Part shown: positions 1,505 through 12,416 of the stretch, piece by piece
How positions within the stretch are numbered: the first letter of the stretch is position 1
Layout of the letters: each line of letters begins with the position of its first letter
Assembly: GCA_017464245.1 (NCBI GenBank)
Contig: JAFUDV010000053.1
Span: 1-54,943, forward strand
DNA: 54,943 bases
Direction: 5' to 3'
Origin: Bacteroidales bacterium
GTDB lineage: Bacteria; Bacteroidota; Bacteroidia; Bacteroidales; UBA932
Notes under the pieces: generated by a model
Databases searched by the model: none
What the model saw: the letters and a program-made list of their open reading frames with translations, nothing else
Told to the model about the DNA's origin: nothing
Position numbers and translations under genes: made by a program

Positions 1505-1915
1505 AGGAGCGTTATATCGGTTCACGACTCCCGGAATGAACACTTAACTGTCAACAAAAAAGGCGTGGGAGTCTTACTCATTGTTAAATCTCCCGCGTCC
1601 GAGGTCTTCGCATTACCTTCTAGTCAGGAACAAACAATTTTGGAAGCCCGCGCCTGTATGAATGCGATGGGTTTGACAACATCGGATTATCACACGGCAC
1701 AGACATCTACCATTGTCTTGCTCTTTGGACTAGAATTCAGAAATTTGCGAAGTTTCGAACGGCCAAAGACAAAACGTTAAGTAAACGTCTTTTCTATGTA
1801 TCGTTAATAGAGGCGTTTATGTGCGACTATCAACTTGACAAAGTTAATAAAAAAGATTCAAAAGTCAGATAGGATTTTTATTTTTTCTTTTGTTTTTTTA
1901 TCATCTATCATGTGT

Positions 1916-1935
1916 GTCCACTAAAAGTTGTGGAC
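1916..1935. promoter_or_regulatory. Inverted repeat, possible operator of the restriction-modification operon
   Basis: Perfect 6-bp arms GTCCAC (1916-1921) and GTGGAC (1930-1935) flank an 8-base spacer. The right arm overlaps the -33 element of the putative promoter at 1927-1958. A dimeric regulator bound here could block or assist polymerase, as controller proteins do in many restriction-modification systems. No protein is linked to it by direct evidence. Confidence 0.4.
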
Positions 1936-1958
1936 TCATGTGTAATAATATATCTTAT
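1927..1958 (+). promoter_or_regulatory. Putative promoter of the leader ORF and restriction-modification operon
   Basis: A -33-like GTTG (1927-1930), a 20-base spacer, and TATCTTAT (1951-1958), which matches 6 of 8 positions of the form TATCTTTG. The start point would be near 1964, about 29 bases before the leader ORF. Confidence 0.4.
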
Positions 1959-1992
1959 CAACTGTTCGGTGTAGAATAAGAGGATTATTGAA

Positions 1993-2166
1993 ATGGATGG
2001 AAAAACGAGCATAATTAAACTTCCATCAGTTGATGGAACTGATGGAAGCGATGGAATGAGGGAAACCTGGCAATTTATCAAGATGATGCAGGACCTATCG
2101 AAAAATATCCGTAAATTTGTCGAAATAACGGATAAATGCCGATGGCTTTGGAGACCGCTCATATAG
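1993..2166 (+). CDS. 57-residue leader ORF of unknown function
   Basis: A short ORF, not recognised as a known family. Its N-terminal half encodes a PSVDGTDGSDGM repeat; the C-terminal half (ETWQFIKMMQDLSKNIRKF onward) looks helical. It overlaps the first 31 bases of the methyltransferase gene in another frame. Controller proteins sit at this position in some restriction-modification operons, but they are longer and have a clear helix-turn-helix, which I do not see. It may instead be a translated leader. The repeat closely matches a segment of the DUF3987 gene at 7289-7334. Whether it is expressed is uncertain. Confidence 0.35.
   Translation: MDGKTSIIKLPSVDGTDGSDGMRETWQFIKMMQDLSKNIRKFVEITDKCRWLWRPLI
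2021..2066 (+). repeat. GATGGAA-unit repeat, copy 1
   Basis: A 46-base tract made of repeated GATGGAA units preceded by an inverted TTCCATC. It matches the reverse complement of 7289-7334 at 40 of 46 positions. Both tracts encode a PS-x-DG-x-DG-x-DGM peptide. Confidence 0.7.
2112..2119 (+). promoter_or_regulatory. Possible -7 box for the methyltransferase gene
   Basis: TAAATTTG is a perfect match to TAnnTTTG and lies 16 bases before the methyltransferase ATG, inside the leader ORF. No good -33 element is placed correctly, so it may be fortuitous. If real, it would allow the methyltransferase to be transcribed separately from the leader. Confidence 0.3.
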
Positions 2167-3707
2167 TTCCGTTTGACGGAGATAACCCTTCTCAGTATGC
2201 TGAGAGGCTTGGGCGGGAGTATGCAAACGCATCCATCCAGAAGGACAAGAAGCACAAAGGCCAGTTCTTTACCCCGCTTGCAATCTCGGTGTTTATGGGC
2301 GGGTTAGCCACCCCGACGAAGAAGAAAGACGTGTCTGTGCTGGATCCGGGCTGCGGCCTGGCCATTCTCTCCTGTGCTTTGATAGAGCATCTGGTTGAGG
2401 AATCCAGACCGGAGACAATCTCCCTGACGCTCTATGAAACCGACAAGAATGTAGTCCCACTCACGAGACTCGTTCTGTCATACCTTCAGGAGTGGTGCAA
2501 GGAACAGGGCGCAAAACTAGATTATAGGCTGAACGAGTCTGATTTCGTCTTGGACAAATGCGAGTGCCTGGACGGTGCTGATACCATCTTCGGGGAGATG
2601 AATGCCGGGGAGAAATACGACTATATCATCTCCAATCCGCCGTATTTCAAGCTCGCGAAGGATGATATTCATACACGGTCCTGTGCCAGCATCGTAGATG
2701 GGCAGACAAATATCTATGCCCTCTTTATGGCGATTTGTGCCAAGATGCTCTCTGAGGATGGCCAGATGATATTCATCACGCCCAGAAGCTTTGCGTCCGG
2801 CCGGTATTTCCAATCCTTCCGGGATTTCCTGTTCAGCCACGTTCACATTGACCTTATCCATCTGTTCAATACCAGGAAGGATACTTTCTCCAAGGATGAA
2901 GTGCTTCAGGAGCTGGTGATTATGCGGATGCATCCGGCTGGCGAGGTGAGGAGCATTACGGTTTCATTCAGCCAGGGGATCAGAGATTTGGAGCATCCTT
3001 ATCAGAAAGAATATCCTGCCGCTGATATCGTGGATGTTACATCGGAGGAGAAGGTTGTCTATCTCCCGGTTGATGGCCGGGACGAGGCGATCCTAAACCT
3101 GTTCCGTTCTTGGGATGGGAATATGGAGAAATACGGCATCAAGATCTCGACCGGACCGGTGGTCGCATTCCGCGCGTACGATTTCATCGTGAGAGAGCCG
3201 GCCGAGGACACTGTACCACTCTACTGGCTCCACAACGTGGTGAAAATGCTGTGTGACCATCCCGTCCAGAAGAAGGACAAAGGGCAGTTCATCAAGGTTG
3301 CACCGGAAACCAAAGCGGCGCTCCTTCCCAACAAGAACTATGTGCTGCTCAGGCGTTTCAGTTCCAAGGATGACAGCAGCCGCCTGGTAGCAGCACCGTA
3401 CTTTGGCAATATGTCTCAGTATGAAGCAGTTGGAATTGAGAACAAATTGAACTATATTTACAGACCGAAAGGTCACCTGCGCAGAGACGAAGTAATGGGG
3501 CTTACTGCACTTTTGGACAGTGAGATGTTTGATGCGTATTTCCGGACGTTCAACGGGAATATCAATGTGAGTGCGACGGAACTGCGGATGATGCCGCTTC
3601 CTCCGATTGAGACCATCAGGGAGATTGGCAGGAAGATTATTTTGAGAAACAATTACTCCATCGACTACATCAATGATCTGGTCCTGGATTACTTTAAGAT
3701 TCGGTAG
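2136..3707 (+). CDS. Type II N6-adenine DNA methyltransferase (PstI/BsuBI type)
   Basis: This 523-residue protein should methylate adenine in the sequence cut by the adjacent endonuclease, protecting the host genome. Class I methyltransferase motifs are visible: KGQFFTP near residue 41 (motif X), VLDPGCGLAIL at 68-78 (motif I, AdoMet binding) and NPPY at 167-170 (catalytic motif IV). The C-terminal half is probably the target-recognition region. The start could be ATG 2136 or ATG 2142. The endonuclease gene begins two bases after this stop, so the two are co-transcribed. Base composition is lower in G+C than the genes to the right, which fits horizontal acquisition. The expected target is CTGCAG, inferred from the partner's family. 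Confidence 0.9.
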   Translation: MPMALETAHIVPFDGDNPSQYAERLGREYANASIQKDKKHKGQFFTPLAISVFMGGLATPTKKKDVSVLDPGCGLAILSCALIEHLVEESRPETISLTLYETDKNVVPLTRLVLSYLQEWCKEQGAKLDYRLNESDFVLDKCECLDGADTIFGEMNAGEKYDYIISNPPYFKLAKDDIHTRSCASIVDGQTNIYALFMAICAKMLSEDGQMIFITPRSFASGRYFQSFRDFLFSHVHIDLIHLFNTRKDTFSKDEVLQELVIMRMHPAGEVRSITVSFSQGIRDLEHPYQKEYPAADIVDVTSEEKVVYLPVDGRDEAILNLFRSWDGNMEKYGIKISTGPVVAFRAYDFIVREPAEDTVPLYWLHNVVKMLCDHPVQKKDKGQFIKVAPETKAALLPNKNYVLLRRFSSKDDSSRLVAAPYFGNMSQYEAVGIENKLNYIYRPKGHLRRDEVMGLTALLDSEMFDAYFRTFNGNINVSATELRMMPLPPIETIREIGRKIILRNNYSIDYINDLVLDYFKIR

Positions 3708-3709
3708 CA

Positions 3710-4651
3710 ATGAGCAAAATTACTGAAGCACAAGAGATTTTGAAAGCGCTGGGGCTTCCGGCTGCGCAGCAGAACGAAATGTCTGCGCTGACACTGCTGG
3801 CCCTTTGCAGCGTCAAGGAAGATACGCCGTGGGCAAAAGCAACACGCACCAGCCAGCGGATTACGAAAGAAATCATGGCCTTTGTAAATGAAAACTATAA
3901 GGCAGATGCTCCGTATGCTCCCAATACGCGGGAGACTTTCCGCAGACAGGTACTTCACCAATTCATCCAGGCAGGAGTGGCCAACTATAATCCGGATGAT
4001 CCGACGCTGCCTGTCAATAGTCCGAAAGCGCATTATGCTATAACGGAGGAGGCGCTGGAAGTCGCCCAGGCATACGGCACCAAGAATTGGGACAGCCGTA
4101 CCCAGCAGTTTGCGGTAGAGTATGAGATATTGCGTGACAGGTATGCTGCTGAACGTGATATGCACCGCATTCCTCTCGTTATCGAGGGAAATGAGTATTA
4201 TCTTTCTCCTGGCGCCCACAATGAGGTTCAGGCAGCAGTCGTTGAGGAGTTTGCCCCCCGGTTTGCTCCAGGCGGGAAACTGCTCTATATCGGCGATACC
4301 GAGGATAAAGACTTGTATGTAAATGCAACCGGGCTGGAGGCTCTTAACCTTCCGATCACGGAGCACTCGAAGCTCCCGGATATCGTCATCAGCGATGAAA
4401 AACGCGGCTGGCTGTTCCTGGTTGAGGTTGTGACCTCTCACGGACCGGTGTCAGCAAAGCGAGTGGTAGAGTTGGAGGAGTTCACCAAGGATTGCCCTTT
4501 TGGTATCGTGTATGTAACGGCATTCCCCAATGCAAGGGAGTTCAAGAAACACGTGGATGATATCGCTTGGGAGACGGAGGTCTGGCTTTCGGATACGCCG
4601 GACCATATGATTCACTTCAACGGCGACCGGTTTATCGGACCGAGAAAGTAG
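3710..4651 (+). CDS. BsuBI/PstI-family type II restriction endonuclease
   Basis: A 313-residue protein expected to cleave unmethylated foreign DNA. The family layout is present: an N-terminal helical, winged-helix-like region (about 1-150) and a C-terminal nuclease region with the conserved block [24 protein letters not shown] at about 222-246. Asp224 and Glu239 are likely metal ligands of a PD-(D/E)XK-like site. The prototypes PstI and BsuBI cut CTGCAG, so this specificity is likely but not proven. It follows the methyltransferase by two bases and is followed by a strong terminator. The full length and intact motifs suggest it works. Confidence 0.92.
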   Translation: [313 protein letters not shown]

Positions 4652-4671
4652 AGTTTCTGTCATACAGTTAC

Positions 4672-4707
4672 AAGAAAGGCTTGCGGTTGATTCCACAAGC
4701 CTTTCTT
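4672..4707. terminator. Bidirectional intrinsic terminator
   Basis: A perfect 12-bp stem (4672-4683 AAGAAAGGCTTG with 4696-4707) has a 12-base loop. Its A/T-rich outer ends can serve both directions. It lies between the rightward restriction gene and the leftward amidase operon. Confidence 0.85.
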
Positions 4708-4730
4708 TGCAGAGGGAATGTCATCAAGAC

Positions 4731-5351
4731 TTAATCCAGATACCTCCAGTCTTTCTTGTAGAACTCGTCGATGTAGGCGATGATGCCTTCGACGTGGAGG
4801 TCGATAATGGCCTGGCGGCCGGTGGAGGACAGGAGGAAGGCGGTCTCCTCCTCGTTGTCGAGGTAGAAGTTGAAGGTGACGGCGGCGGGCATCTGGGCGT
4901 GCTTGAGCAGGTACTGCGGGACCTCAACGGGAGGATAGTCGCTGGTGTTGCGGTGGTGCGCGTCTCTTCCCTTGAGGTGGCGCTTGGCGGCGGCCAGAAG
5001 GGCTTCGCCCAGGGCGTTGTCGTCTTTGTATCCCGGGAAAGTGCTGACCCACCATCCGCCTTTGTCTTTCCAGATGTTGCCGTTGCCGTCTTTGGCAATC
5101 TGGATGGAGACCAGGAAACATTCGTGGCGGCCGTAGAGGAAGGCCTTCCTGTTGGCGCGGTCCACCCGCTCGTCGTTGGGGATGTCTGCGGGCTCCGGAA
5201 CGAGGAGTTCGGCGTCGTAGCCCCGGTGAAGGAATTCTTCGCGGATGGCGCGGGCGATTTCGCGGTTGTAGCGACCGGCAATGAGCTTGCAGTCTGGTGA
5301 GGAGATTCCATCGCGGCTGGAACCGAGGCCGTTGTCGATAATGATTTTCAT
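4731..5351 (-). CDS. Amidase_3-like pseudoenzyme
   Basis: A 206-residue paralogue of the amidase encoded immediately upstream. The two align without gaps for about 190 residues and share the C-terminal block TGRQAIIDLHV-x-GII. Yet every position that should bind zinc or catalyse is changed: His9 to Leu (DPGHG becomes DNGLG), Glu25 to Ala, His84 to Gln and Glu160 to Phe. It therefore cannot be a normal zinc amidase. It might bind peptidoglycan or regulate its active neighbour; that is inference. I start it at MKIIIDNGLG (5351), in register with the partner, although the frame is open further upstream. The gap between the genes is 11 bases. Confidence 0.8.
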   Translation of the reverse strand: MKIIIDNGLGSSRDGISSPDCKLIAGRYNREIARAIREEFLHRGYDAELLVPEPADIPNDERVDRANRKAFLYGRHECFLVSIQIAKDGNGNIWKDKGGWWVSTFPGYKDDNALGEALLAAAKRHLKGRDAHHRNTSDYPPVEVPQYLLKHAQMPAAVTFNFYLDNEEETAFLLSSTGRQAIIDLHVEGIIAYIDEFYKKDWRYLD

Positions 5352-5362
5352 GGTGATTGGGA

Positions 5363-5956
5363 TTAGATGTGTGAAACATAGTTGATGATTCCTTTGACGT
5401 GGAGGTCGATGATGGCCTGGCGGCCGGTGTAGGATTCGAGGAAGCGGAGGTCTTCGGGATTGTCGTAGAAGAGGCTCTCCGTGAGGGCGGCGGCGCAAAG
5501 GGTGCGGGAAAGGATGGTGAAGTCGGACTCAAAGTCCGGGTCGCCGTCGGAGTAGTCTTTCCGGATCTTGTGCCCGGGAAGGTAAAGTTCTGCGGTCTGG
5601 TAGAGGCAGGTGGCCAGGCGGTCGCCTGCTGTTTGGCCACGGGAGGTGTAGCAGCACCAGCCCCGGGCGTTCATCCATTGCTTGCCGTTGCCGGCTGCGT
5701 TGGCGTGGATGGAGACCAGGCAGACGTTGCGGCGGCCCAGCTGGCGGCACCAGGTATTGACGCGCTCGACGCGGGCGCGGAGGGAGATGTCGTATTCTTC
5801 GGTAACAAGGAGGGTGGCATCGTAACCGGAGAAAGTGAGTTGTTTTGCTACCGCTGAGGCGATGTCGCGGTTGAAGCGGTATTCCAGGAAGCGGCCGTCG
5901 GGGCTGCGTTTGCCAGGGGTGTTGCACCCGTGGCCGGGGTCGAGAAGGATTTTCAT
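5363..5956 (-). CDS. N-acetylmuramoyl-L-alanine amidase (Amidase_3 family)
   Basis: A 197-residue enzyme expected to cut the bond between muramic acid and the stem peptide of peptidoglycan. The zinc-site residues of the family are all present: His9 in LLDPGHG, Glu25 in FLEYRFN, His84 in VSIHANA, and catalytic Glu160 in ALTESLF. There is no signal peptide or wall-binding domain, so it would act from the cytosol or need a holin-like partner, as phage endolysins do. Its ATG overlaps the stop of the DUF3987 gene (ATGA), which indicates translational coupling. Amidases at this position near VirE/DUF3987 genes are common in Bacteroidales mobile elements. Confidence 0.9.
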   Translation of the reverse strand: MKILLDPGHGCNTPGKRSPDGRFLEYRFNRDIASAVAKQLTFSGYDATLLVTEEYDISLRARVERVNTWCRQLGRRNVCLVSIHANAAGNGKQWMNARGWCCYTSRGQTAGDRLATCLYQTAELYLPGHKIRKDYSDGDPDFESDFTILSRTLCAAALTESLFYDNPEDLRFLESYTGRQAIIDLHVKGIINYVSHI

Positions 5957-7767
5957 TGTGCTGTTTTTTCGTAATTGCCTTGTTTGATTCTGTGGATGAG
6001 GCCGATCTGGCACCAGTTCTTGATGTAGCGTTCGGCGGTGGGATTGGGGATGCCGAGACGGGCGGCGTGTTCCAGGAAGGACTTGGTGCTGAAGGTGAGC
6101 GGGAGGCTCCGGAGGAACTGCTGCTGGCGGTCGGTGCGCTCGGCGGCGGGTTTGGTGAGGTCGGCGCTTGAGAGCTCGCGGTAGACGCGGACGGTGTGGC
6201 GGATGAGCACGCGGGAGATGGCCATGGCGGAGCTGAAGTCTTCATCGTCGCAGATGAGGGTGCTGACTTCCTCGCCGGTGTCGCCGAGGCGAAGCGCGGA
6301 GAGAACCATCGCGATGCGGAAGGTGATGAGGCCCAGGCGCCGGACGCTGGCGATGATGTCGTCCCCGAAGAGGAGGTGGTATTCAGCCTGCGTGGCGCCG
6401 TAGTAGGCGTTGAAGCGGTCCTGCTGGTCCGTGGTGAACTGGAACTCGATCTCCGGCTGCATCTCCAAGCGCTGGTAGAGGTCGGTGAAGCCCCAGCCGA
6501 TGTCGTCGAAGATTTCTTCGAGGGAGCTGCCCTGGGGCCGGGCGAAGACGTTGAGCCACTCCAGCTTGAAGCCGAGGTAGTAGAAGATGAAGCGGGAGAA
6601 AAGGCCGTTTTCGGCATCCGGGATGAGGGCGGATATCTGCCTGGGCGTTCCGGAGAGGACCGTCGAGAGACGCGGGCGAAGCAGCTCCACAAACTCACGG
6701 TCTTTACGGCGGGTGTAGGAAATGGGCTCGTGGTGGAAGGCCTTGCGGAAGCCGTCGCTGTAGTTGCCGAAGTCGGAGCTGAAGACGTTGGCCAGGGTGT
6801 CGCCCTCGGTCTCGAACATCAGGCCGCCTCCGCCGTTGTCATTGAGGATCTGGTAAACGGAGGTGGCGGAACTGTTGGCCGGGATGAACAGCAGGCGCAG
6901 CGGCGGCTCCTCAGGCGGATCCAGGTCTGGGTTCTTTTTCTTTGCCTGCTCGTAGCGGGACTTTTCGATGCGGTAGTTTTCCATCTCGGTGCGGTAGAGG
7001 TCGCGCATCTGCTCGTGGATGGGCTGCACGAGACGGCGGCAGAGCGTCAGGCGGCCCTTGCCGGCGGAAGCCGGTGCCGTGACGAACAGGAAGAGGTTGG
7101 GATAGACCTGGCGGCCGGCGTAGATGCCGTACACGCGCGTAAGGCAGGCCGAGAAGCTGACGATGGAGCCGAGGATGAGCAGGTCGGCGTCTTCGTTGGA
7201 GGTGGCGTTGCGGGCAACTTCGTCGAGGATGCCGGGCAGATGGCCGTAGAGTTCCTGGGAGAAGGTGGGCATCGGTTCGGGGGCGGGAGTTTCCATCATT
7301 CCATCGGTTCCATCAATTCCATCGGTTGATGGAAATTCCTGCTGCGGTTTTTCTACGGGGAAGCTGACAGAGATACCACACTCCTTGGCGCGGCCGAAGA
7401 AAGACTTGACGGTGACGGCGCCGCGGCCGGCCTTGACGCAGGCGGTGTACTGCTTGTCGGCTTCCTGCTGGTTGTACTGAGGATAGAAGCGGCTGACGCG
7501 GTGGAAGTAGTCACGGCCGCCTTCTCCCAGGGCATCGGCCAGGGCGAAGCCGACGGTGAGCCAGTTGTCGTATCCGGCGGTGATGTCAACGGCGGCCTCC
7601 TCGATGCGGCGCGTGACCTCGGCAATCTGCTCCTCCAGGGTAGCGTTCATGTCGCGGTTGATGGAGGCGCTGCGCCGGGACGGCTGGGCCTGCGGCTGCT
7701 GCTCCTGTCCGCCGGTCGCTGCCGGGCTTTCCTTCCATTCGTCGGGGTTGAATTTCTTCTTTGCCAT
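5953..7767 (-). CDS. PriCT-2 / DUF3987 helicase-like replication protein
   Basis: A 604-residue protein likely to act in replication of the element. Residues about 61-131 match a primase C-terminal PriCT-2 domain (NWLTVGFALADALGEGG, then YNQQEADKQY and GAVTVKSFFGRAKE). Residues about 170-560 form a DUF3987 domain with a Walker-A-like loop, TAPASAGKGRL (230-240). A low-complexity linker PSTDGIDGTDGM (147-158) comes from a GATGGAA-unit repeat. In many Bacteroidales these domains are fused behind a VirE_N domain. Here VirE_N is a separate gene ending five bases upstream. I start at MAKKKFNPDEW (7767); sequence upstream in the same frame is antisense-like and Arg/Pro-rich. Confidence 0.82.
   Translation of the reverse strand: MAKKKFNPDEWKESPAATGGQEQQPQAQPSRRSASINRDMNATLEEQIAEVTRRIEEAAVDITAGYDNWLTVGFALADALGEGGRDYFHRVSRFYPQYNQQEADKQYTACVKAGRGAVTVKSFFGRAKECGISVSFPVEKPQQEFPSTDGIDGTDGMMETPAPEPMPTFSQELYGHLPGILDEVARNATSNEDADLLILGSIVSFSACLTRVYGIYAGRQVYPNLFLFVTAPASAGKGRLTLCRRLVQPIHEQMRDLYRTEMENYRIEKSRYEQAKKKNPDLDPPEEPPLRLLFIPANSSATSVYQILNDNGGGGLMFETEGDTLANVFSSDFGNYSDGFRKAFHHEPISYTRRKDREFVELLRPRLSTVLSGTPRQISALIPDAENGLFSRFIFYYLGFKLEWLNVFARPQGSSLEEIFDDIGWGFTDLYQRLEMQPEIEFQFTTDQQDRFNAYYGATQAEYHLLFGDDIIASVRRLGLITFRIAMVLSALRLGDTGEEVSTLICDDEDFSSAMAISRVLIRHTVRVYRELSSADLTKPAAERTDRQQQFLRSLPLTFSTKSFLEHAARLGIPNPTAERYIKNWCQIGLIHRIKQGNYEKTAQ
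7289..7334 (-). repeat. GATGGAA-unit repeat, copy 2
   Basis: On the minus strand this tract reads as repeated GATGGAA units after an inverted TTCCATC. It encodes the linker between the PriCT-2 and DUF3987 domains and matches 2021-2066 at 40 of 46 positions. Confidence 0.7.
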
Positions 7768-7772
7768 AGGTG

Positions 7773-8702
7773 CTACAGGAGTTCGGGGTTGATGTAGGCC
7801 TGCGGGTCGCACGGCAGAAAGCAAGCGCGGCAGACGTCTTTGCCTGACTGGTCCACCTGGATGCCGTAAGTCTTCTGGACGTAGGCGGAGACGGAGCGGA
7901 AGTAGTCGCCGTGGCTGCATTCGGTAAGATCGACTGGAATGACCCATTTGAGGCCGTCGCCGGAGGGGCTGCGGAAGAGCAGCTGCGTCTCGAAGTATTC
8001 GTCCGTCTGGAGCTTGCGGAAAAGGCCCTCAACGTCCTGCAGGTGGTCGAAGTCGAGGCAGAGAAGGCCGCTGTGCTGGATGAGCTTGTCTTCCTTGCGG
8101 ACGGAGAAGGTGCCGGAAAAGGTGCAGTAGTCGAACTGCGTTGCTTTGAACTGGCGGGCACGGCGGACGTCGCGTATCCTCCGGAGGTCCTGGGTGCGGT
8201 TGTGGGCGTATCGGCCTACGATGTAATTGTAGGCGTCGCGGACGGTAATCTGCTTGTGCGGGACGGTGTTGGCCACGGGGGCCTTGAAGAAGGAGAAGTG
8301 GGGCTGCTCGACGAAGGGCGTCTGGAAAAGAAGGCCCTGATTCTCCTGCTTCCCGAGGTTGAGGTAGAGCTCGTCGCTGATCACCTGCAGGAGTTCGTCG
8401 CCGGTCTTCTGGTAGAAGCGTTCGGCGAAGTCCAGGAAGGTGCCGTCGGGGATGTGTCCGGAGGAGTCGTGGTGCCGGGCGATGCGGCGCGGCAGCTTGG
8501 CCTCAGGATCGACCTTCTCCATCCAGATGTGCAGCGACGGGCGGGAGTTGTCCCACGGGTTGCGGTTCCAGCCGCAGTCGTCTCCGGAGACTTTCATCAG
8601 GAAGTCGGCCGGGTAATACTGGCGGAGGATGTGGGAGTAAACGTCGGAGCCGTAGAGCGTGCGGGCGATGACGTTTTCTTTGGTCAGGTCGGCGGGTTTC
8701 AT
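7773..8702 (-). CDS. VirE_N / BT4734-family primase-like protein
   Basis: A 309-residue protein. The C-terminal part (about 150-309) matches the VirE_N/BT4734 family: the conserved strand LLCLDFDHL, then FRSPSGDGLKWVIPVDL. That pattern recalls archaeo-eukaryotic primase-like folds. The N-terminal region (about 35-110) resembles the DnaG CHC2 zinc-binding layout (NPWDNSRPSLHIW, then DSSGHIPDGTFLDF) but has lost the cysteines. With the downstream PriCT-2/DUF3987 gene it probably forms a split primase-helicase unit that replicates the element. It follows the small DNA-binding gene by three bases. The name VirE_N is historical and implies no T-DNA function. Confidence 0.8.
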   Translation of the reverse strand: MKPADLTKENVIARTLYGSDVYSHILRQYYPADFLMKVSGDDCGWNRNPWDNSRPSLHIWMEKVDPEAKLPRRIARHHDSSGHIPDGTFLDFAERFYQKTGDELLQVISDELYLNLGKQENQGLLFQTPFVEQPHFSFFKAPVANTVPHKQITVRDAYNYIVGRYAHNRTQDLRRIRDVRRARQFKATQFDYCTFSGTFSVRKEDKLIQHSGLLCLDFDHLQDVEGLFRKLQTDEYFETQLLFRSPSGDGLKWVIPVDLTECSHGDYFRSVSAYVQKTYGIQVDQSGKDVCRACFLPCDPQAYINPELL

Positions 8703-8705
8703 ACT

Positions 8706-9164
8706 CTAGCGGCGGATGTCACCCGGCTTGTGGTTCGCTACGTAGGTCTGGGCAATCTCCAGGGCGTTTTCCGGGTTGGCAGGACGTCCGGCATTGTTCC
8801 AGGCGATGATTTTGGTGAACGGGAAGAAGAGCTTCTTGCCGCGCTTGACGTAGGGAATCTTTTCGTCGCATACCCAGCCGTAGATGGTCTGCTGGGCGGG
8901 ATGGTCCGGCAGGAAGTCTGAGAGTTCCGTGACGCTGAATTCCTTCACGGGGTTGAGGAAGCTGGGATTGAGCCGGCACAGGAAGTCCCAGATGTAGCGG
9001 GTGAAGACGTTCAGCCGGGCAAGTGCTGCGGGGATTTCCTCCTCGGGCACAGGCTGAAGGGTGTCGAGCTCTTCTTCCAGCTGCTGCTGGAGCGTTCTTT
9101 CGGGCCGTGCGGCCTGGATGGTTGCCTGGTCGATGACGCGGGCGGATTCAGTTGTTTTGGGCAT
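8706..9164 (-). CDS. Small DNA-binding protein (excisionase-like helix-turn-helix)
   Basis: A 152-residue protein. Residues about 75-135 look like a MerR/excisionase-type winged helix: FSVTELSDFLPDH, then QTIYGWVCDEKIPYVKRGKKLFF, where a strand after the recognition helix reads a short wing. The N-terminal third is Glu/Gln-rich and may be a coiled coil. I start at MPKTTES (9164), because the sequence further upstream belongs to the terminator and repeat region. It heads the replication/amidase unit, directly after the internal terminator, so it is a good candidate regulator of that unit or an excision factor. Confidence 0.65.
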   Translation of the reverse strand: MPKTTESARVIDQATIQAARPERTLQQQLEEELDTLQPVPEEEIPAALARLNVFTRYIWDFLCRLNPSFLNPVKEFSVTELSDFLPDHPAQQTIYGWVCDEKIPYVKRGKKLFFPFTKIIAWNNAGRPANPENALEIAQTYVANHKPGDIRR

Positions 9165-9215
9165 GGCTTTGTGTTTTATGCCGCTGCCCTTTCTGAATCC
9201 TGGCGAGTGTGGGAA

Positions 9216-9246
9216 CAAAAAAGCCAGCGACGGTTGTTTCGCTGGC
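9216..9246 (-). terminator. Intrinsic terminator inside the element
   Basis: On the minus strand, GCCAGCGA and TCGCTGGC form a perfect 8-bp stem (9223-9230 with 9239-9246), followed by CTTTTTTG. It separates the integrase unit from the replication/amidase unit. Confidence 0.8.
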
Positions 9247-9268
9247 AAATATGGAGGGGGTATTATGC

Positions 9269-9308: not shown

Positions 9309-10343
9309 TTATCCTTTCTTGTCGTTTTCTATCCTTTGGGCGACTGCGGGAAAGAGTTCCTGCAGGGCGCCTTGCACGATGCCAAGGTCTTTCTGTACGG
9401 ATTTCCGGTCAAAGTCGATGTTGAGGTATTTGCGGAGGTTCTCGATGCTGTGGCCGGAAATGAAGTGGATGAGGCGTGCCCAGGCAGTCTTGTCGGAGTT
9501 GGTGAAGTCGATGTGCAGCTCGCGGAAAAGATAGTAGAACAAGAGGGCGAGCTGGTCAGCGGTAGCTCCTTTGGTCGTTCCCCCGTCAGCGGAAGCTATG
9601 GATGGGCTCGCTGCGGCGTCGTTCGCGGCTTGCTCCGCCTTGATTTCCCGCTCCAACAGGTCGAAGCGGTGGACCAGGAGGCCGCTGACCATCCGGTACA
9701 GGTAGGATTTGTCGCCCATGAAGAGTTCGGCCGTGTCGCCGAGGAACTTCCTTTTCGCGGCCGGTTCCAAACGGGACATCGACAGCTCGACGGACTCCAT
9801 AATGGCCATGGCCAGGCACTGGTCGTGGAGGGCTATCATTTCTTCGGGTTCATGCAGAAGGTAGCGCTCATCCTCGGGTGTGAGTTTGAGAAGGATGGCT
9901 GGAAACTGAGAGTAATGTTCTTTATCGGCCAGGAAGAAGTTGTTGAAGGCAAGCTTCTGCTTCTCCGTGATGATTCTGGAGGTGACACCAATGGCCAGTG
10001 CAAGCGTCATGACGGTGCAGCGCTGACCGTTGGAGGTGGTGTGGCACTCATAGATTTTGTCATCGAGAAGCTCCGGGAGGGTGTTCTTGTATCCGGGCAT
10101 CGGCTCCAGTTGTTTGTGGAATTCCTTCAAGTAGGGTCCGATGGCCTCCTTGCCTTCAATCTCGTCGAGGATGTGCTTGACACAGTTGCAGAGGGTGACG
10201 GAGGGGAAATCGCGCTCGTATATCTGTAGTTCCGGAGTGAGACCGGCACTATAAATCTTGGTGAGGAGGGCGTATGCGCAGCCATAGTCGGGGCTCTCGA
10301 AGACGACATCTACGACGGTATGGAAGTAGCGTTTTACGAACAT
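9309..10343 (-). CDS. Element-associated protein of unknown function
   Basis: A 344-residue soluble protein that I do not recognise. It is rich in predicted helix, with no signal peptide or membrane segment. The C-terminal 80 residues (from QLALLFYYLFRELHIDF to NIDFDRKSVQKDL) are reminiscent of C-terminal regions seen in Bacteroidetes mobile-element proteins. The middle contains an Ala/Ser-rich linker near residue 245. It lies two bases after the integrase gene and before the internal terminator, so it belongs to the integration/regulation unit. Its role there is unknown. Confidence 0.6.
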   Translation of the reverse strand: MFVKRYFHTVVDVVFESPDYGCAYALLTKIYSAGLTPELQIYERDFPSVTLCNCVKHILDEIEGKEAIGPYLKEFHKQLEPMPGYKNTLPELLDDKIYECHTTSNGQRCTVMTLALAIGVTSRIITEKQKLAFNNFFLADKEHYSQFPAILLKLTPEDERYLLHEPEEMIALHDQCLAMAIMESVELSMSRLEPAAKRKFLGDTAELFMGDKSYLYRMVSGLLVHRFDLLEREIKAEQAANDAAASPSIASADGGTTKGATADQLALLFYYLFRELHIDFTNSDKTAWARLIHFISGHSIENLRKYLNIDFDRKSVQKDLGIVQGALQELFPAVAQRIENDKKG

Positions 10344-10345
10344 GG

Positions 10346-11524
10346 CTATTTGGTTTTCGGTTCAACGGGGTTCTTGCGGGGGCGGCCGCCTTTGTTCTTG
10401 GGTTTGTCGGTGAGGTCGATATCGACACCGATGTTGATGGATTCCGCAGCCTTGCGCTTGTCTTCGTCCATGATGTCGGCATAGATCTGGGTGGTGGCTA
10501 CGTTTGCGTGGGTGAGGAGTTTGGACACCGTGTAAATGGAGGTTCCCTTGCTGGTCAGCAGTGTGGCATAGGTGTGGCGGAAAGTGTGAAAGGTGACGGG
10601 CTTGGTGATGCCGGCATCGGCCACCCACTGCTTGAGGTACTTGCTGAGGGTGGTCCGGCTGAAGCCGTCGAAGATGCGGCCTTCCTTCTTCTCCCCAAGC
10701 AGGGCGAAGGCTTCTTCGCTGATGGGAATGAGCGCCACGGTGTCGGTCTTCTGGGTGCGGACGTCGAGGGCATAGCCGCCGTCGGGGTAGATCTTGACAT
10801 TGTCCCAGGTGAGCTGCTCGATGTCGGAGATACGGAGGCCGCAGAGACAGCTAAGGAGTCCGGCGCGCTTGACCTGCGAGTTGCCGCAGGGGGTGGCGGC
10901 CAGCTTGCGCACTTCGTCCAGGGTGAGGTATTCCTTGTGGATGGCCTTGAAGGGGATGCCCTCCAGCCGGGAGACGACGTCATCGAGCAGGATCTTCTCT
11001 TTCTGGGCGCGTTTGAGGACACTGACGAAGAATATCCAGTAGTTGGCGGCGGTGTTCTGGCTGACGAACTGACGGCCGTCGAGGGTGCAGTCCGGTGCCA
11101 GCAGGTAGGCCTTGAAGCGCTCGCAGAGGTCATAATTGACATCGGCAACGGTGCAGTGGCCGCCGGTGAACTTGCGGAAGTGCTTGAAGGTGCCCATGAC
11201 GTTGGAGCCTGGCTCATTTGCAATCTTCTCGAAGTAGTTGATGAAGTCGATGCGGCCGCGGGTGCGGTCGGCAAAGCCGAACTGCTCCTTGAGGATGGCT
11301 ATCTCGCGTTCGGAGCGTATGGCCTCGGCGATTTTGAGTTTCTCGGCGTTGTTGCTGCGCTCGATCTTGCCCTTGGGGTCTTTCTTCAGGTAGATACCCA
11401 GGTATTCGCGGCGGCTCTCCAGGCCGGTGCGGGGATTCTTGACCGGCGGCCAGAAGTCCAGGTAGAGCGTGATCTTGCCGCTCGGGAGCTCGCGTTTGCG
11501 GAGGGTGACTTTGGTTGCTGACAT
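10346..11524 (-). CDS. Tyrosine site-specific recombinase (integrase)
   Basis: A 392-residue integrase expected to insert and excise the element. The N-terminal third is the arm-binding region. A SAM-like core-binding domain covers about 90-190 and the catalytic domain about 200-370. Catalytic residues are visible: Arg231 (CGLRISD), a probable Lys259, His313-x-x-Arg316 (HTFRHTYATLL), His339 (LLTHANVATT) and nucleophile Tyr348 (QIYADI). The C-terminal tail is basic and Pro-rich. It starts four bases after the regulator gene's stop. The length and layout match Bacteroidetes transposon and phage integrases. Confidence 0.95.
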   Translation of the reverse strand: MSATKVTLRKRELPSGKITLYLDFWPPVKNPRTGLESRREYLGIYLKKDPKGKIERSNNAEKLKIAEAIRSEREIAILKEQFGFADRTRGRIDFINYFEKIANEPGSNVMGTFKHFRKFTGGHCTVADVNYDLCERFKAYLLAPDCTLDGRQFVSQNTAANYWIFFVSVLKRAQKEKILLDDVVSRLEGIPFKAIHKEYLTLDEVRKLAATPCGNSQVKRAGLLSCLCGLRISDIEQLTWDNVKIYPDGGYALDVRTQKTDTVALIPISEEAFALLGEKKEGRIFDGFSRTTLSKYLKQWVADAGITKPVTFHTFRHTYATLLTSKGTSIYTVSKLLTHANVATTQIYADIMDEDKRKAAESINIGVDIDLTDKPKNKGGRPRKNPVEPKTK

Positions 11525-11528
11525 AAGG

Positions 11529-12416
11529 CTATGACTTTTTCTTGTGTTTCATGATGTAGTTGTAGAGCTGGCGCCGGACGTAGAGGATCTCGCGGCCGCG
11601 CTGGATGCCTTTCATTCCGGCTTTGCGGGCGTAGTAGAGAACGCTGGCCTTGTTCATGCCGAGTTCCTTGCCGAGGCTGGTGATGGTGCAGAATTCGATG
11701 TCCTGCTCATTGAGGTTGCTGCGGAGGATGTCCCAGTCGTATTTGGAGATGAGGAGCTGGCGGCCCTGGTGCTTCTTGGGGATCTTCTTTTCGCTGACGG
11801 TATCATAGACGTGCTGGCGGGAGATGTGGTATTTGTCCATGATTTCCTGGACGGTGTACCAGTCTTCCGCCCCAGCTTCGCTGGGGTTGAAGCATTTCTT
11901 CAATGCCTTGGTGTCGAAATGGATGCGGCCGTGGAAATAGAAAGCGGTGAGTCCTTTCTGCTTGGCTCGCTCACGGATATGATCGGCCGTGAAGCCCAGG
12001 AGCGGAGCTGCGTCTTCCGGGGTGATGTATTCCTGCTGTTGGACCAGGGCATCGGCGTGAGATGTATGCAGCGGGGAGAAGCTGTTGTGGGGGTCCGTGA
12101 GCTCCCTGATGTTGATGCGGACGGTGCGGGGACCGAGTTTCACGGGATGGATGGAACCTTCCTCGATGCGTTTGTAGAGGGTAGGACGCGAGACGTTGAG
12201 GAGGATGGCGGTCTCCGTGATGGAGAGATAGTCCTTGGAAAGGAGAATCTCCCGCGTGCGGTCCTTTACTGAGGTGGATTTGTCCAGGGAGTCGGAGGGC
12301 GCCTTGTGGTCCTTATGGAAGTGGTAGTCGCAGAGGTTGGAGCAGAAGTGCGCTGCGGGGTTGGCTGCCTCGAAGGGCTTCCCGCAGTAGTCGCATATGT
12401 ATGTGCTCCTTTCCAT
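11529..12416 (-). CDS. Zinc-finger protein with four tandem helix-turn-helix units
   Basis: A 295-residue DNA-binding protein at the head of the element. An N-terminal treble-clef-like finger has Cys8, Cys11, Cys25 and Cys29 plus nearby histidines. Four excisionase/MerR-like units follow at about 63-102 (LSITETAILLNVSRPTLYKR), 129-168 (ITPEDAAPLLGFTADHIRER), 186-225 (YTVQEIMDKYHISRQHVY) and 243-282 (CTITSLGKELGMNKASVLYY). Each ends with a strand pair typical of the wing. Such a protein could bridge several sites, as an excision or integration architectural factor or a master regulator. It has its own strong promoter. Confidence 0.75.
   Translation of the reverse strand: MERSTYICDYCGKPFEAANPAAHFCSNLCDYHFHKDHKAPSDSLDKSTSVKDRTREILLSKDYLSITETAILLNVSRPTLYKRIEEGSIHPVKLGPRTVRINIRELTDPHNSFSPLHTSHADALVQQQEYITPEDAAPLLGFTADHIRERAKQKGLTAFYFHGRIHFDTKALKKCFNPSEAGAEDWYTVQEIMDKYHISRQHVYDTVSEKKIPKKHQGRQLLISKYDWDILRSNLNEQDIEFCTITSLGKELGMNKASVLYYARKAGMKGIQRGREILYVRRQLYNYIMKHKKKS

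Follow-up and report, generated by a model that had tools for sequence, protein, structure and literature searches.

A strongly diverged pseudo-amidase gene beside an endolysin-type amidase gene on a putatively mobile Bacteroidales element

EnvC is a periplasmic protein with a LytM fold. In the passage of PMC4946905 that deals with it, it is a hydrolase relative without catalytic residues that activates amidases; such degenerate hydrolases resemble the protein described here in their missing catalytic residues, but EnvC is not the amidase itself in an inactive form. CwlM, as treated in the same paper (PMC4946905), is a cytoplasmic amidase homologue that acts as a regulator and whose enzymatic function is non-essential. 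It resembles our protein in being an amidase homologue; the essential role of CwlM is regulatory rather than enzymatic. It differs in being a mycobacterial cell-wall gene, whereas ours lies on an integrase-bearing element beside an endolysin of the active type. Among mobile elements, the NBU-like mobilisable elements of Bacteroides group integrase, HTH, VirE, and DUF3987 genes as in the integrase-VirE-DUF3987 cluster BT4615-19 of B. thetaiotaomicron, next to which the relevant section of PMC10434189 places MobC and a relaxase (BT4621-23); the same section also has the amidase gene BT0706 near the DUF3987 gene BT0709-10. The release of the Mu endolysin, in the portion of PMC9239132 concerned with it, is a different kind of lysis control. 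Amidase-derived regulators are already known, but in open-licence PubMed Central papers we found no description of one that a mobile element carries together with an active endolysin.

The window analyzed here is the whole 54,943-nucleotide stretch of contig JAFUDV010000053.1 from a Bacteroidales bacterium (assembly GCA_017464245.1). It carries two adjacent amidase-family genes followed by a hairpin:

5363 to 5956, minus strand: P0001, active-type Amidase_3, phage-endolysin-like protein of 197 aa (PF01520, 76.7 bits; phrog_435 endolysin, E 4.9e-35; HEHE site).
4731 to 5351, minus strand: P0002, pseudo-amidase of 206 aa with 4/4 catalytic positions replaced (PF01520, 43 bits; model pLDDT 88.7).
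4674 to 4704, no strand assigned: terminator-like hairpin between the pseudo-amidase and a restriction gene (fold z -5.4 for 4651-4735; matching 9219-9249 of the related element L054).

Both proteins score above the PF01520 cut-off of 27. P0002 lies directly downstream of P0001 after a gap of 11 nt, its reading frame is open over all 206 codons, and its GC3 is 0.82 versus 0.80 in P0001. The two proteins align with no relative gap across residues 1-197 at 39% identity, bearing out the first-pass annotation, which had described a gapless alignment of about 190 residues and the replacement of all four active-site residues: positions 9/25/84/160 are H/E/H/E in P0001 and L/A/Q/F in P0002. We take His9, Glu25, and His84 to be the zinc ligands of the Amidase_3 family and Glu160 to be its catalytic Glu; the ligand trio (His, Glu, His) is present in P0001 and absent in P0002 (L9, A25, Q84), and E160 of P0001 corresponds to F160. 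The description of P0002 as a dead copy holds as to family and to the four sites, but "copy" overstates the closeness of proteins of such low identity. A recent tandem duplication was rejected as the simple account: in 30-codon windows the DNA of the two genes is 41-64% identical over most of its length. The last window reaches 72%, and this likeness at the 3' end may be due to gene conversion.

The structure prediction that had been proposed gave a model of P0002 that falls within the amidase fold, which is thus predicted to be kept, although the AlphaFold alignment consisted almost entirely of active homologues and is biased toward the known fold. The top rows of fold searches were nearly all titled amidases or endolysins, and the absence of CwlM there is uninformative. 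A phmmer search of P0002 against the PDB gave no match at E 0.1, and neither protein matched PADLOC. By hydropathy no membrane-like segment is present in P0001 or P0002 (maximum 19-residue value of P0002, 0.74).

Upstream of the pair, and on the same strand, lie the backbone genes of the element:

5953 to 7764, minus strand: PriCT_2 and DUF3987 protein (PF13148, PF08707), its end overlapping the amidase start by 4 nt.
7773 to 8702, minus strand: BT4734-like_N (PrimPol-like) protein (PF08800; PADLOC PrimPol model).
8706 to 9179, minus strand: HTH protein (weak HTH_17, below the Pfam cut-off).
9309 to 10343, minus strand: conserved protein of 344 aa, family unassigned (no Pfam match; 42-47% identical in L054-L056).
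10346 to 11524, minus strand: tyrosine recombinase (integrase) (PF00589, PF13102, PF17293).
11529 to 12416, minus strand: HTH_17 protein beside the integrase (Pfam, two matched stretches; 30-32% identical in L054-L056).

The recombinase suggests that the element is mobile. Like a phage satellite, it carries an integrase together with replication-type genes of its own, and we would liken it to P4-like and PICI satellites in its integrase, HTH, primase-like genes, defence cargo, and size of ~10 kb; the window element differs in having an endolysin aboard. Its gene grouping also resembles what we take to be the layout of NBU1. In contrast to BT4615-23, where the section cited above puts MobC and a relaxase next, the window has the endolysin and cargo, and no relaxase or packaging gene was found among the ten window proteins scanned. 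The window contains no tRNA gene and no Rfam match at gathering score. The 344-aa protein, kept beside the recombinase in L054, L055, and L056, has no Pfam, PHROG, or NCBIfam match.

Closely similar phage proteins were found for P0001, which by its sequence would be an endolysin-type amidase. It matches PHROG 435 (endolysin) over residues 1-193, while P0002 matches over 147-194 only (E 1.9e-4), short of a whole-protein match. Among the 106 phage records matched by P0001, the 12 listed are 52-57% identical and 11 of them are annotated as endolysin, with a spanin adjoining the endolysin in some. Bacteroidales phage endolysins of this family (e.g., those of Bacteroides phages BKO1-TP3 and Versailles) thus resemble P0001 at up to 57% identity, and the three phage copies examined all have the HEHE site and a length similar to P0001. 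To P0002, which has none of the catalytic residues, they are only 36-39% identical (15 listed of 47 records). When short frames starting with ATG between 1800 and 12700 were screened by simple hydropathy for holin-like proteins, a single one came up (1908-2162, minus strand), which overlaps a repeat and reads as a chance match. If lytic, P0001 probably needs the holin of a helper phage, and such a need fits a satellite-like life without showing one.

Gene order and restriction-modification (R-M) pair are shared with a sister element, L054, from a second genome of the genus, which has a single amidase, directly before the shared hairpin. Protein identity to the window is 68-77% for recombinase, BT4734, DUF3987, and amidase, 42% for the unassigned protein, 52% for HTH, and 32% for HTH_17, and DNA identity is 81% over the R-M stretch and 76% over the longest backbone stretch. 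In three other loci (L055, L056, and L059) backbone genes are likewise accompanied by a single amidase. Elsewhere in 400 genomes there were 54 other DUF3987 matches, 28 of which were checked over 1-1.5 kb of downstream DNA; an amidase followed in six, always single, and none in 22. Three further DUF3987 matches adjoin an amidase match (L059 and, by coordinates, G396:C10 and G160:C2), and three viral DUF3987 loci were matched (L079-L081). In the 28 checked stretches, the search for other DUF3987 elements with adjacent amidase pairs, as the first-pass annotation had proposed, turned up single amidases only.

Using P0002 as query, matches were obtained in 42 of 151 genomes (E 1e-3), in 75/400 and 50/398 (E 1e-25), in 6/393 (E 1e-20), and in 22/200 (E 1e-15), these genome samples overlapping. 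A scan of genome contigs gave one locus (L032) and one of viral contigs two (L051, L052), all three HEHE; a clade-specific query (A3) gave no locus. Phage records matched by P0002 numbered 47, all below 60% identity, and plasmids two. In total 129 distinct amidase ORFs from the retrieved loci were compared, the window's own pair and the weaker matches of two P0002 genome searches being left out of this count. HEHE was found in 107, single active-site changes in L015 (H9Y) and L033 (H84Y), and one is the orthologue described below; in the remaining 19, which are incomplete, broken, or misaligned at one end, one or more of the four residues are always kept. No second tandem amidase pair was seen among the 129, most loci extending no more than 1.5 kb beyond the match, and no all-dead site besides that of the window. 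In one contig (G084:C97) two partial amidase matches lie 3.5 kb apart on opposite strands, one of them examined with 1.5-kb flanks.

Our preferred, though tentative, reading, to which we give somewhat less than an even chance, is that P0002, a rare and diverged pseudo-endolysin, has been retained, for some time at least, because it binds without catalyzing and in this way tempers its partner. The 11-nt gap and the hairpin after the P0002 gene suggest one transcript, so that P0002 would be made together with P0001. It would be cytoplasmic like P0001, presumably unable to bind zinc or hydrolyze peptidoglycan, and may have been kept for binding. It could then compete or pair with an active endolysin, either its neighbor's or that of an infecting phage, most likely as a lysis brake; our guess for this brake step is that binding, either to peptidoglycan or to the active endolysin, lets it temper lysis. 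Should P0002 restrain the endolysin, lysis would be controlled by a protein that descends from the lysin.

The main rival, which we hold to be improbable but better placed than the others, is that P0002 is a relic, i.e., a second amidase gene that lost its function and is drifting, its frame open by chance or through a recent loss of constraint; it would then show gene turnover behind the amidase of such elements. Several amidase genes of the family are in fact split or partial (L005, L031, L063, and L100), and among 62 sequences no terminal branch is as long as that of P0002 (1.56, the next being 0.86). The dN/dS between P0002 and P0001 is 1.05, near 1 as a drifting gene would have it. Against active L054, L055, and L059 it is 0.62-0.70 for P0002 and 0.23-0.34 for P0001, and these high values over a longer history are compatible with relaxed selection. 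Across homologues, dN was higher for P0002 than for P0001 in 60/60 comparisons and dS in only 22/60, pointing to a speed-up at the protein level rather than extra age, with a median dS of ~1.15, near saturation, that makes the ratios rough.

The pattern of losses fits drift less well. P0002 departs from consensus at 20 of 58 strongly conserved positions (those kept in ≥90% of 61 relatives). The 20 include every catalytic position, yet despite its long branch P0002 still keeps 38 of the 58. In a post hoc hypergeometric test, the loss of 4/4 catalytic positions given 20/58 lost has P 0.011. The relatives that follow it in divergence (L032, L078, and L051) have lost 13, 12, and 11 of 59-60 conserved positions and no catalytic one, and among the 62 sequences 59 have no catalytic loss, two have one, and P0002 has four. 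In neutral simulations of active L054 the frame stayed free of stops in 5% of runs at 0.2 substitutions per site and in 0.5% at 0.5, whereas the P0002 frame is open. P0002 is thus the gene of a strongly diverged Amidase_3 pseudoenzyme with an open frame, and no fresh dead copy. Its place in trees is unstable: the full tree puts it outside 55 others, while in trees that omit the C-terminus it groups with L003/L034/L061/L004 at weak support (47-63), in a wider clade that also holds the group of P0001 (supports 96 and 79).

Further evidence on drift comes from one genome, G314. When 400 genomes of the genus were searched, it gave the one P0002 match that stood out, with 69% identity across query residues 136-205. 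The locus (L053) holds a 3' fragment (positions 1296-1487) of 64 codons, the remnant of a truncated gene, which shares 73% identity with the last part of P0002 and has Phe, as in P0002, where the catalytic Glu belongs. At covered positions lost in P0002 it is non-consensus in 6/6 and has the identical residue in five, and at covered positions kept in P0002 it keeps 9/9. No other clear amidase of the family was found in G314, the sole further P0001 match having E 0.23. An assembly artefact was considered, and is made unlikely by this independent fragment and by the sister element L054.

Between P0002 and the fragment dN is 0.173 and dS 0.508, giving a dN/dS of ~0.33 (Fisher P 0.005; bootstrap range 0.15-0.73, with 0.2% of replicates ≥1 and 99.8% below 1), an estimate that covers the last third of the gene, 63-64 codons with one catalytic site. 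Active pairs give 0.30 (L054), 0.40 (L055), and 0.46 (L059) over the same part, so that the value for the dead lineage is within their reach, and the last third of the gene was under constraint in the P0002 lineage after the change of catalytic Glu to Phe. These results leave the earlier proposals partly standing. Selection for a non-catalytic role gains from this constraint, but the sole orthologue is truncated. Decay of the second gene in homologous elements, which would have spoken against a role, is seen in that truncation, while the frame in the window is open and its last third constrained. As for recurrence of the four substitutions, the orthologue shares the Phe at the one site covered, and no other all-dead site occurs among the other ORFs.

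The reading of P0002 as a tempering binder, like the earlier functional interpretation, is partly supported, by the dead site, the predicted fold, and the constraint in the last third; counting against it, and in favor of the relic, no full-length orthologue was found and the sister element does without the pseudo gene. A bolder version, which we consider unlikely, is that small integrative elements of this bacterial family bring along a phage-type endolysin of their own, from which one lineage derived a dedicated dead partner. This partner would time lysis or stop rival phages' endolysin from acting, as a mobile amidase-fold anti-endolysin.

Still less likely, in our estimate, is that P0002 is anti-phage cargo, a decoy or dominant-negative against the endolysin of infecting phages that belongs with the R-M genes and is not a partner of P0001. 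The cargo lies downstream of the pair, with the R-M genes on the opposite strand and a repeat whose partner copy is upstream of the pair:

3710 to 4651, plus strand: BsuBI/PstI-type restriction endonuclease, cargo (PF06616, PF17728; 96.5% identical in L054).
2136 to 3707, plus strand: Eco57I/N6-type DNA methyltransferase, cargo (Pfam; 88.5% identical in L054).
2018 to 2066, plus strand: TGATGGAA-type repeat, distal copy at the outer end of the cargo slot (contains a 12-bp hairpin).
7289 to 7337, minus strand: TGATGGAA-type repeat, inverted partner copy, inside the DUF3987 gene.

On one side of the pseudo gene is the amidase, and on the other a slot often occupied by genes of defence type, in relatives R-M, weak GNAT-like, Schlafen/AlbA_2, or DNA methyltransferase genes. 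In L055 the amidase is followed by a GNAT-like gene (below the Pfam cut-off), and the P0002-like fragment of L053 by a different cargo gene (Schlafen/AlbA_2). Downstream of DUF3987 in the 22 amidase-less loci, 4/10 proteins scanned are DNA methyltransferases (L145, L150, L160, and L165), which gives this junction the look of a hotspot for defence genes. That Bacteroidales phages carry the same endolysin family would give such a decoy its target, but P0002 has no PADLOC match, and its gene has the orientation of the amidase and is on the same side of the shared hairpin. The evidence does not distinguish a brake on its own partner from a decoy for phage endolysins.

That P0002 is a cytoplasmic regulator unrelated to lysis, by analogy with the regulation of peptidoglycan synthesis by CwlM, seems very unlikely; an amidase homologue regulating in the cytoplasm has its precedent there (in the passage of PMC4946905 cited above), and P0002 belongs to the same broad family and has no membrane-like segment, but its position beside the endolysin suggests a link to the latter. 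A changed enzyme with other chemistry or another metal site would account for the strong sequence change around the pocket but is highly improbable, since no metal site is obvious with Leu, Ala, Gln, and Phe at the four positions, and P0002 has only two Cys.

The cargo slot itself yielded some further observations. The BsuBI/PstI-type R-M system occupies the same slot in two elements (2136-4651 in the window, 9276-11785 in L054), its high protein identities going with 81% DNA identity, which indicates constraint and not a very recent transfer. In a related element (L136, genome G618) a second slot, ahead of the primase genes, is filled by an EcoRI-type methylase and a GmrSD_N/HNH gene (4912-7202); its amidase is followed by a 185-aa gene (11605-12162), acetyltransferase-like by eye and with no Pfam match. 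Repeats of 44-52 bp built of TGATGGAA units occur inverted in the window, L054 (7223-7272 and 11870-11918), L055 (241-284 and 3116-3167), and L056 (263-306 and 3150-3201), one copy in DUF3987 and one past the cargo, and could be a site of cargo exchange or inversion. In L053 two direct copies (1515-1562 and 2986-3037) flank the Schlafen/AlbA_2 gene.
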